Shown here in pieces: positions 54,291-62,465 of a DNA stretch of 64,000 bases. The stretch spans positions 64,793,492 through 64,857,491 of the forward strand of contig NC_057867.1 in NCBI RefSeq assembly GCF_019393635.1. Direction: 5' to 3'. The position numbers and the translations under genes are program-made. A model generated the notes under the pieces. It saw only the letters and a list, made by a program, of their open reading frames with translations, was not told the DNA's origin and made no database searches. The stretch is from Dromiciops gliroides. Taxonomy: Eukaryota; Chordata; Mammalia; Microbiotheria; Microbiotheriidae. Numbering within the stretch: the stretch's first letter is position 1; each line of letters starts with the position of its first letter.

Positions 54291-56050
54291 CTAGCTGAGG
54301 GGCCACGAGGTGCAAAGGGTGGCAGACGGCCCTGGCTGTGACTCTTGTTGCTGCGGACTCGGTTTCATCAGGAACACTTCCAAGCTAGCCGGGCGTGCCT
54401 TCTTTCTGTCCTGAAGCATCTCTGAGTAGCAACCTAGAGCCTGTAAAACCGTCCGCTTCACTGAGCAGCTTCGCTCACAGTCAGGATCATTCTCTGACAA
54501 AACCTCCAGGGCGTGTGAGACCTCAGCCAAGCAATCAGACAGGACCTCTGTCGTTAACATTCGCCCCGAGCCAGCTTCCTTGTCATCGTCCCTGCTGTCC
54601 ACTCTTTCCTCTGTGAAGTGCTGGTCGGCCGACTCCTGCAAGTCCTCATTCCCTGTGTCTCCGGAGTTATCCAAGAGCTCCTGCACATCATCAAGGGTGA
54701 CCTCCTCAAAGCCTAGTAGCTTTGCCATACGTGCGACCTCTGTGGTAATGGCCAAAATTTCTGACTCTACCTCAAAGAAATCATTTGCTAAATCGGGCCA
54801 CACCTTTCGCCAAACACCACTTAGACAATGGCTATTCACTTCTGCCCAGGCGATTTTGATATTGTCAATTGCCTTCATAATGTTGTAATCCTTCCAAATT
54901 TCCCTGATGGTAAGTTGCTTATTACTAGTGTTGACCTCAAGCAGCTGACTAAAAGTGCACCTGAAGTAGTAAGCCTTAAACACTGCAAAGACACCCTGGT
55001 CCATGGGTTGAAGAAGTGAGGCTGTGTTTGGGGGAAAAAACAAGACCTGGATGGGCAGACAGGTCTGAAGCGAGTCAAAATTCGACAGGCTGCCCATGGA
55101 ACTGTCTAAGACCAACAACGCTTTGGGTTCCAAACCGTATTCTGTACAGTAACACTGCACGACAGGACAGAAATGATTAACAATCCAGTCATTAAACATG
55201 TCTGTCGTCACCCAGGCCTTCCTGTTGGACTTCCAGATAACAGGCAGGTTAAGTTTAGAAAAACCTCTCATGTGTTTAGGAGTCTCAGAATGATAGACAA
55301 GGAGAGGCTTCAACTTAATGTTTCCCAAGGCATTGCTGCCTAGCAGAATGGTCAAACGGTCTTTGGTGGCCTTAAAGTCAGCAGCATCTTTCTCTTCTCG
55401 GGGGAGAGCTCGGGAAGGCAAGCGTTTCCAAAACAGCCCTGTCTCACTCACATTAAAAACTAAATTTGGAGAATAGTTTCCTCTCTCAACAACAGCCTTG
55501 AGCACTGCAGGAAATTCTGCTGCAGTTTTAATATCAGCACTGGAAGTTTCCCCTGTGATGCGAATGCTATTAATTTTATTTCGCTTTTTGAACTTCTCGA
55601 ACCAGCCACGGGAAGCTACAAATGTTTTGCTGGATTCCTCACCTGCCTGTGCTTTCAAATGATCAAATAAACTCAGAGCCTTTTGCATTATCAATGCCTG
55701 GCTGAGCGGCATGTGATGCTGCATCATGTTGTCTACCCAAATACTTAACATGTTCTCCATTTTCTCCATGACACTACTTCGGATTCGGGTCACCTTGGCA
55801 GCAGTGAGGTTACTGGAGTTGTGCACGGAGGCCTTCACTCTTTCAGCTTGGTTTAAAATGGATTTTAAGGTTGACTGTGCCAGGCCAAATGAACGAGCCA
55901 CCTCACTCTTCATCTCGCCAGCTTCTACTCGCTTGATTATCTCTATTTTCTTTTCCAAAGAGATAGATTTGCGCTGAACTTTTTTCTCTGAAGGGCCACT
56001 ACCATCAGATGGACGTTTGGAAGACATGATGAAGGTAATGTCTAATTTCT
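54291..56050 (-). CDS. KRAB-Tigger fusion gene, last exon: Tigger/pogo-type transposase
   Basis: A single exon codes an unbroken Tigger transposase resembling TIGD1. The acceptor TTTTTGTTTTGGCAG sits just above 56050. In phase 1 the exon adds EKLDITFI and then the transposase's own ATG (56027) with MSSKRPSDGS, giving 586 residues here and 673 with the KRAB exons. Numbered from that ATG, a Psq-type helix-turn-helix spans about 22-60 and a CENP-B/Tc5-type domain about 85-150. The DDE domain carries S194 (in FNVSETGLFW, where TIGD1 has D), D308 (LLVLD) and D343 (LQPMDQG), spaced DD34D. Loss of the first acid predicts no transposition, while the DNA-binding part is whole. The acidic and Gln/Pro-rich tail also resembles TIGD1. 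No terminal inverted repeats are visible. An ATTAAA (54151-54146, minus) is a possible polyadenylation signal. If unspliced, it would be a stand-alone 578-residue TIGD-like gene. Confidence 0.93.
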
Positions 56051-56124
56051 CTGCCAAAACAAAAATCGATTCAATTCTGTTAAAGCCTGAGTGACGTTAA
56101 GGAAGGTTAAGAGTAAACTAGAGG

Positions 56125-56278
56125 GGAGCAGCTAGGTGGCTAAAGCACTGACCCTGGATTCAGGAGGACCTGAGTTCAAATCTAGCCTCAGACACTTGAC
56201 ACTTACTAGCTGTGTGACCCTGGGCAAGTTACTTAACCCCCACTGCCCCGCCAAAAAAAAAAGAAAAAAAAAAAAAGG
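56125..56278 (+). repeat. tRNA-headed marsupial SINE near the transposase acceptor
   Basis: It is in sense on the + strand, hence antisense to the fusion gene, about 75 bases from its last acceptor. The head lacks the GCAGTGGA part. The flanks GAGTAAACTAGAGGG and GAGTAAGCTAGAGGG are the target duplication. Confidence 0.92.
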
Positions 56279-56309
56279 AAAGAGTAAGCTAGAGGGATAC
56301 CTGGGCCAG

Positions 56310-56520
56310 TCCCATCCAAGCCATAGCATGGCACAATGGAAAGGACACTTGATCTGGACTCAGTGGATCTGGATTCAAATTCTACTTTGCCACCCGTGTG
56401 ACCTTGGACAAGTCATCAAATCTCTCTGTACCTCGGTTTCCTCATGGGCAAAATGAGACAGCTGACCTAGATGACCTGTTAGGCCCCACCCCTTCTAACT
56501 CCAAATCTGTGATCCTATGA
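56310..56520 (+). repeat. MIR-class repeat
   Basis: GTGTGACCTTGGACAAGTCA, TCGGTTTCCTCATGGGCAAA, GATGACCTGTTAGGCCCC. Confidence 0.7.
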
Positions 56521-56729
56521 ATCTCCTTCCTCAGTGGCTGGGAACTCACTGCTACAGTATTTCAGAGAAATATGGAACTTTAGACCTTAGAAATTACATA
56601 GTCTCTGAGCAAACTGAAGCTCAGAGACAGTGAGTGACTGGCCCAGGATCATACAGTTTGTTGGTGAGAGTCACAATGAGAGTCAGGGGATCTCCTAGTC
56701 TAGTACAATCTCAAAAAACGGAACAGAGA

Positions 56730-61513: not shown

Positions 61514-61639
61514 AAAGGGGGAGAATACTAGGGAACATATGTAAATTTAGGGGGAGCCACACATGGAGGGCAATTCCCAACCACACTGGCCAGAAGAAAG
61601 TTTCATCACGTCTGTATCCAGATACAAAATCTTCAGTTT

Positions 61640-61755
61640 AGGAGTGTTACTGTCATTGTAACAACTCACAGTTACACAGCATTTTAAGGAACAGTCTCAT
61701 GTTCACAGCAATGAACAAATGAGGAAATCAAGAGAGATTCTTTTACATCCAACTG
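61640..61755 (-). repeat. MIR-like relic
   Basis: AACTCACAGTTACACAGCAT and ACAAATGAGGAAATCAAG suggest antisense MIR. Confidence 0.5.
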
Positions 61756-61804
61756 CAGGGCTGGGATGGAAGTTGAGGGTGTGTCGGTGGGTGGGGGTTC
61801 TTAC

Positions 61805-61931
61805 CCAATGAGGCCACATTCCCATAATTTTCCAGCATCACGTCCCTGTAGAGCCTCCTCTGAGCAGGGTCCAGTAGCCCCCATTCCTCCTTTGAGAGAT
61901 ACACGGCCACATCCTCAAATGTCACCAACTC
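61805..61931 (-). CDS. KRAB-Tigger fusion gene, KRAB-A exon
   Basis: The exon is 127 nt, the standard KRAB-A size, with acceptor GTTCTTTTAG above 61931 and donor CATTGG/GTAAGAA below 61805. It codes [20 protein letters not shown], then [20 protein letters not shown] and SLG. All the hallmark residues are present (DV, EEW, VMLENY), which for this family predicts binding to TRIM28 and transcriptional silencing. It enters in phase 0 and leaves in phase 1. Downstream on this strand there is no zinc-finger exon before the plus-strand gene. The next coding exons are the KRAB-B-like piece and the transposase. Confidence 0.96.
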
Positions 61932-62373
61932 CTAAAAGAACAGGTTCCTGCTGCCCCAGGGAGAATCTCAGAAGGCCGCCCCAGAATGAGGTGCCCAGGC
62001 AAGGGAGAGGGTATGTGCAGAAGTAGATGTTAGAGTGGAGGCGAGGAAGGACACAGAGCATGGCACAGGACAAAGAGCAGCCAAAGAGCAATCAAGAGAG
62101 CCTGGGTTCCATTCCTGGCCCTCCCACTAACTGATCAAGATACTGCAGTCAAATCTCAACCTTTGCACAATTCAGTTTGCCCACCTCTGAAACGGGAAGA
62201 ATACCAGCCCATGACCATTACCCAGGAGAAGAAGAGCCCAGGCTCCCAGGGGAGAAAGCTGGGGCTCAAGCCCCGGGATGACACAGTGCTGAGGATGCTG
62301 AAGGAAAGGTCCAAGCCGACGCTCAGGCAGCAACAATAGAATCTTGGGCAGGACAGAGGGAACCAGAGCTCAC
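61932..62373. other. intron between start exon and KRAB-A exon
   Basis: A short 442-base intron on the minus strand. No repeat is recognised. Confidence 0.6.
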
Positions 62374-62465
62374 CTGAGGCCTGGCTGTCAGGAGAGCAGC
62401 TGCCATCGCCTGGTCTCCTGTGTGCCCCGTGTGGGAAAGGGCAAGAGCACACAGAGCAGCTGGAG
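62374..62465 (-). CDS. KRAB-Tigger fusion gene, start exon
   Basis: The ATG at 62406-62404 begins MAAALLTARPQ, the standard leader before a KRAB-A exon, and CCTCAG/GTGAGC gives a phase-0 donor at 62374. A likely acceptor, TTTTCACCTTCCTTAG, places the exon's 5' edge at 62465, so a non-coding first exon and promoter should lie to the right. No CpG island is seen up to 64000. Confidence 0.85.

Follow-up and report, generated by a model that had tools for sequence, protein, structure and literature searches.

Fusions of host domains with captured transposases have been described in several groups of vertebrates. In the literature, 106 such fusions derived from 94 events are counted in tetrapods and the fusion gene KRABINER is described (PMC8616336), KRAB-transposase fusions are reported to repress in a sequence-specific manner (PMC8327481), and POGK figures as the KRAB-bearing member among 12 listed pogo-derived genes (PMC7386202). 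The present work concerns a stretch of 64,000 nucleotides from the marsupial Dromiciops gliroides (NC_057867.1, positions 64,793,492 to 64,857,491; hereafter the window), whose minus strand carries a gene that joins a KRAB domain to a Tigger transposase. An earlier reading of the letters alone (the sequence-only reading) had proposed this gene as a host-transposase fusion and had called KRAB fusions of this kind established, in agreement with the three papers above. The gene is real and conserved, and it is probably functional. We consider it likely to be a domesticated host-transposase fusion gene, whose product is most likely a sequence-specific KRAB repressor with a DDE domain that probably no longer cuts.

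The closest described systems resemble this gene only in part. In KRABINER, too, KRAB is fused to a full-length transposase that was captured (PMC8616336, PMC10799480); however, that transposase is a mariner, the gene belongs to vesper bats and it was formed with ZNF112, whereas the present gene is of the pogo/Tigger type and is found in marsupials. POGK is likewise a chimera of KRAB and a pogo-superfamily transposase, but as described it contains BrkDBD and HTH_Tnp_Tc5 and derives from Passer, while the present gene has CENP-B_N and is thus set apart from POGK by the described domains (PMC7386202). BrkDBD is absent from the seven Pfam families listed for the Dromiciops product at E values up to 0.1, CENP-B_N being present instead. 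CENP-B has the CENP-B_N helix-turn-helix (HTH) in common with this gene, and its DNA-bound structure 1hlv was matched both by sequence (4.3e-09) and by fold; nevertheless it is a separate pogo domestication, and KRAB was not found for it in the sources consulted (PMC7386202). In the parts of the literature searched, a marsupial KRAB-Tigger gene is nowhere described, the 106-fusion list of Cosby 2021 lying outside that scope.

Exons, domains and marsupial orthologues

The gene comprises four minus-strand exons (Table 1) with GT/AG splice sites, which join into a frame of 673 codons plus stop without any internal stop; coordinates, phases and length hold exactly as the sequence-only reading had given them. 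The start codon (62406, minus strand) stands in a context with G at -3 and +4, and the 11 residues encoded by the first exon recur in full in the Vombatus, Phascolarctos and Petaurus models. The transposase frame is one uninterrupted open stretch (54291-56096), and the AG before 56050, the predicted acceptor of the fourth exon, lies immediately 5′ of the old transposase ATG (MSSKRPS). Intact exons and orthologues together suggest that a four-exon transcript is made in Dromiciops. Since an AG resembling an acceptor precedes the first coding exon, the gene probably begins farther 5′, beyond the window. For the N-terminal residues of the Dromiciops model in the databases, the window gave no convincing match among those listed. 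The Monodelphis model (P0005) has approximately 187 residues ahead of the KRAB exon, including a QSAQQIH.TEK segment that the Dromiciops model also has, and this stretch is likewise without a convincing counterpart among the listed window matches.

Four domains pass the Pfam cut-offs within this single open reading frame: KRAB (residues 13-54, E 2.5e-25), CENP-B_N (113-157, E 6.5e-10), HTH_Tnp_Tc5 (183-250, E 2.6e-12) and DDE_1 (317-501, E 1.4e-38). This is the order that had been proposed, a KRAB domain followed by the HTH part and the DDE domain of a Tigger transposase. The DV, EEW and MLE motifs have roles in the KRAB A-box, and all three are present here, as seen in the sequence and in alignments to ZNF568 and ZNF93. 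The predicted structure is of middling confidence (mean pLDDT, the predicted local distance difference test, 72.3; pTM, the predicted template modelling score, 0.48) and contains a DDE fold, with fold matches to 3k9j and 1hlv.

The 673-residue prediction was searched against 5.8 billion protein sequences, with the 7988 candidates having the most words in common being scored, and gave 516 matches, of which the best 120 are considered here. The protein P0003, from Dromiciops gliroides itself, covers 90% of the query with 100% identity, the shared part being identical. Six further species, with 85-91% identity, come next among the matches listed (Vombatus, Phascolarctos, Monodelphis, Antechinus, Petaurus and Trichosurus), with 86-91% in the transposase exon. 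The Vombatus protein is 91% identical across 100% of the spliced product and spans all three exon junctions. KRAB is present in five of the six other-species models, joined to the transposase at identical residues, with the B-box/transposase junction preserved in all five; the proposal of a KRAB-Tigger fusion is borne out in this respect. The most conserved part is KRAB-A, where 40 of 42 positions are the same in every model that includes it. Residues 13-54 are identical at 42 of 42 positions in Vombatus and Monodelphis and at 40 of 42 in Antechinus, as are all 29 of the residues compared in Phascolarctos and Petaurus. The B-box (residues 55-87) shows 67-82% identity in five orthologues. The sequence-only reading had not recognised such a protein; its orthologues are in fact already catalogued, but all under the name 'tigger transposable element-derived protein 1-like', which omits the fusion.

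In line with the claim of the sequence-only reading, the window revealed no rival zinc-finger exon for the KRAB exons: the minus strand of the whole window gives 0 matches to a simple C2H2 pattern, which fingers deviating from the pattern would escape. The plus strand gives 20 matches, all between 33135 and 34731. A KRAB-A-like stretch (15543-15674), a B-box-like one (16643-16708) and C2H2 matches in an open frame (32472-34817) were noticed on that strand, and together (15543-34817) they probably belong to one KRAB zinc-finger gene.

Table 1. Positions in the window of the exons of the KRAB-Tigger gene and of associated candidate signals
Feature	Positions	Strand	Signals and content
Exon 1 (start codon)	62465-62374	-	acceptor-like CACCTTCCTTAG, donor GTGAGC; codes MAAALLTARPQ
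Exon 2, KRAB A-box	61931-61805	-	acceptor TGTTCTTTTAG, donor GTAAGA; Pfam KRAB 2.5e-25
Exon 3, KRAB B-box (GVPISKPDLIFQLEQTDLPSVLRLPHTEIEDFLD)	58649-58548	-	acceptor TTCCCATGAGCAG, donor GTGAGT
Exon 4, transposase	56050-54291	-	acceptor TTTTGGCAG; CENP-B_N, Tc5 HTH, DDE_1, C-terminal tail, stop
Alternative shorter KRAB A-box exon, in frame	61889-61805	-	internal AG acceptor; loses 14 residues including FEDV
Alternative shorter B-box exon	58614-58548	-	internal AG present; fits the Dromiciops database model
Possible polyadenylation signal ATTAAA	54151-54146	-	pattern match alone

Catalytic residues and constraint

The first catalytic aspartate (D1) is replaced by Ser or Gly in the seven marsupial species, whereas Asp is found at this position in 233 of the 259 other rows compared. 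The NAPGH motif is also lost in all seven. An active transposase was rejected as the nature of the product, given that D1 is lost in every one of the seven species. The DNA-binding part is more conserved than the DDE domain, which is the opposite of what other Tiggers show: the HTH/DDE divergence ratio has a median of 0.32 in the fusion gene versus 1.27 in 85 comparable pairs without KRAB, although 10 of these 85 pairs (12%) have ratios at or below the top value of the fusion gene, 0.88. The 61 non-KRAB rows behind this comparison were chosen by hand from 120 listed and may include other domesticated proteins; moreover, the pairs are non-independent, and the ratio is undefined for identical ones.

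With regard to the reading frame, 3.6-4.7 stops would be expected under neutrality according to a simulation, versus an open frame in the window and in six models. This simulation is a stand-in that mutates the transposase frame of the window only (300 draws per distance), and it somewhat overstates the case because databases favour open frames. At the level of the protein, the fused product thus appears to be maintained by selection.

Origin and other Tigger fusions

The relationships of the transposase were inspected in two trees, a quick one of 121 rows and a careful one of 51 chosen rows; the latter used 544 columns that are each filled in at least 70% of the rows, a threshold expected to remove KRAB. 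The seven marsupial species constitute one clade with full support (100/100) in both trees. The careful tree places Monodelphis outside the remaining six species, with weak support (80/44), and pairs Vombatus with Phascolarctos (88/71) and Petaurus with Trichosurus (98/91). The nearest outside rows among those listed are P0009 (55%) and the burying beetle Nicrophorus vespilloides, the nine rows being held together at 100/100, and they belong to a wider group of 19 rows including spider, bee, skink, frogs and sawfish.

Three alternative placements were rejected by approximately unbiased (AU) tests, in which the groups were defined from the domains and names of the proteins, though with the quick tree already inspected. 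The first is one clade with the mammalian TIGD1-type rows (AU p 7.85e-59; six TIGD1/CENPBD1-type rows), the second one clade with another marsupial KRAB-Tigger set (p-AU 9.4e-06), and the third one clade with the platypus KRAB-Tigger protein P0089 (p-AU 2.6e-07, to be read with a caveat for long branches). According to these rejections, the fusion arose apart from the second marsupial set and the platypus set, and from a Tigger lineage other than that of TIGD1. The mammalian proteins named TIGD1 or CENPBD1 are also Tigger-derived and have the 'TIGD1-like' name in common with this gene, but they represent another Tigger lineage; the earlier description of the transposase as Tigger1-like is therefore a matter of database naming only. 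The fusion is best read as having formed before the opossum split from the other marsupials, and horizontal entry of the Tigger lineage is possible.

The second marsupial set (P0050 from Trichosurus, P0073 from Vombatus and P0180 from Petaurus) likewise has KRAB first and then Tigger, and is conserved across species. Identity to the fusion protein is 36% for P0050 and 34% for P0073; the linker of this set is longer, and D1, NAPGH and the third catalytic residue (D3) are intact in these two proteins. Within the set, P0073 and P0180 show 90% and 88% identity to P0050. The platypus protein P0089 has the same order of KRAB and Tigger and is 38% identical. KRAB-bearing rows number 12 among the best 120 of the 516 matches and 13 among the 120 listed in a second, overlapping list, which indicates that KRAB-Tigger proteins recur in vertebrate databases.

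Other Tigger-derived proteins were met in the same searches. Precomputed Pfam lists give SCAN together with Tigger domains in P0193, P0195, P0196 and P0205 (whales and hippopotamus) and in the marsupial proteins P0143, P0146 and P0148, and both SCAN and KRAB in the snake protein P0239. The fusion order is reversed in the skink protein P0035 (Tigger, then KRAB and zinc fingers), whose domain kinds are also those of P0057, and in the bat protein P0066, with KRAB close to the C-terminal end. P0123 (Dromiciops) and P0124 (Monodelphis) represent another marsupial Tigger-derived protein of 757-759 amino acids, with a long stem branch common to both.

Alternative readings and meaning of the fusion

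Several observations weigh against a domesticated fusion gene encoding a KRAB repressor. The orthologue evidence consists of database protein models, in which a stop overlooked by annotators would be invisible, and the full form as drawn by the sequence-only reading is found only in the Vombatus and Antechinus models. The Monodelphis model has the full KRAB after a different N-terminal stretch. Those of Phascolarctos and Petaurus (P0004, P0007) read MAAALLTARPQ-EEWGLL, the first 14 KRAB-A residues being gone, which is what the internal acceptor at 61889 would yield. The Dromiciops model (P0003) leaves out KRAB-A, and its B-box exon starts from an internal acceptor (...IHDTEK-LEQTDLPS), and the Trichosurus model (P0008) begins at the transposase ATG, without KRAB. 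As for catalysis, the second catalytic residue (D2) is kept in all seven species and D3 in six of them, so that catalytic death hinges on D1 and NAPGH. The second marsupial set has a median HTH/DDE ratio of 0.78 (three pairs), without a strong HTH bias, and Dromiciops groups with Antechinus (97/91), inside and not beside the Australian species.

The models lacking all or part of KRAB, together with the internal AG acceptors at 61889 and 58614, speak for the alternative that survives best, namely that the domesticated Tigger gene chiefly makes a KRAB-free DNA binder, with the KRAB forms as minor or mis-predicted isoforms. We hold this to be improbable, since the conservation of KRAB-A and the junction preserved in five other species are difficult to reconcile with a transposase translated separately from the KRAB exons. 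A Tigger copy of recent arrival, or one still able to move, could be argued from the predicted DDE fold and the retention of D2 and, mostly, D3; against it, the seven species form a single clade lacking both D1 and NAPGH, and none of the five inverted pairs found in 53000-57500 flanks the exon on both sides, although diverged or distant repeats could escape this search, and on balance such a copy is very hard to credit. Least credible of all is a chance arrangement in which an open Tigger copy and the KRAB exons of an unrelated gene happen to be in compatible phases. The KRAB-like exons and zinc fingers on the plus strand favour it in that KRAB exons are common locally, but it was rejected on the five orthologue models with an identical junction and is further opposed by the lack of minus-strand C2H2 matches in the window and by the simulation, in which neutrality would not leave a frame this diverged still open.

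Under the preferred reading of a domesticated fusion gene, a Tigger-type pogo transposon would have inserted 3′ of a KRAB-encoding gene, or within its intron, in the ancestor of living marsupials, and an acceptor just 5′ of the transposase ATG would have allowed the KRAB-B exon to be spliced onto the transposase. The CENP-B_N/Tc5 helix-turn-helix pair may bind sites related to the old transposon ends, while KRAB would recruit TRIM28 and heterochromatin and so cause repression; the DDE domain may have been retained as a scaffold or dimerisation part. Isoforms from the alternative acceptors, in which KRAB-A is missing wholly or by half, would bind DNA but repress less. A bolder account, speculative and with a modest chance of being right, is that of a marsupial-wide KRAB repressor from a Tigger lineage absent in other mammals, which the marsupial ancestor would have acquired horizontally, the nearest relatives in this search being P0009 and the burying beetle. 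The protein would have been kept for its ability to bind DNA, selection having moved away from the catalytic domain and onto the HTH pair, and its repressive strength would be tuned by the KRAB-cutting acceptors.

Among KRAB-transposase fusions, the gene represents a further candidate transcription factor, conserved in marsupials, and a new instance of an established route to gene regulators. With three KRAB-Tigger sets (two marsupial and one platypus) lying apart in the tree, the fusion seems to recur, the AU tests having compared this gene with each of the other two sets in turn. The locus also offers a clean pattern of the way in which a transposase may turn into a regulator, with the catalytic Asp gone and the DNA-binding part nearly fixed. 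The likely targets are the remnants of one Tigger family, so that marsupials would allow a direct test of regulatory rewiring through the capture of transposases.
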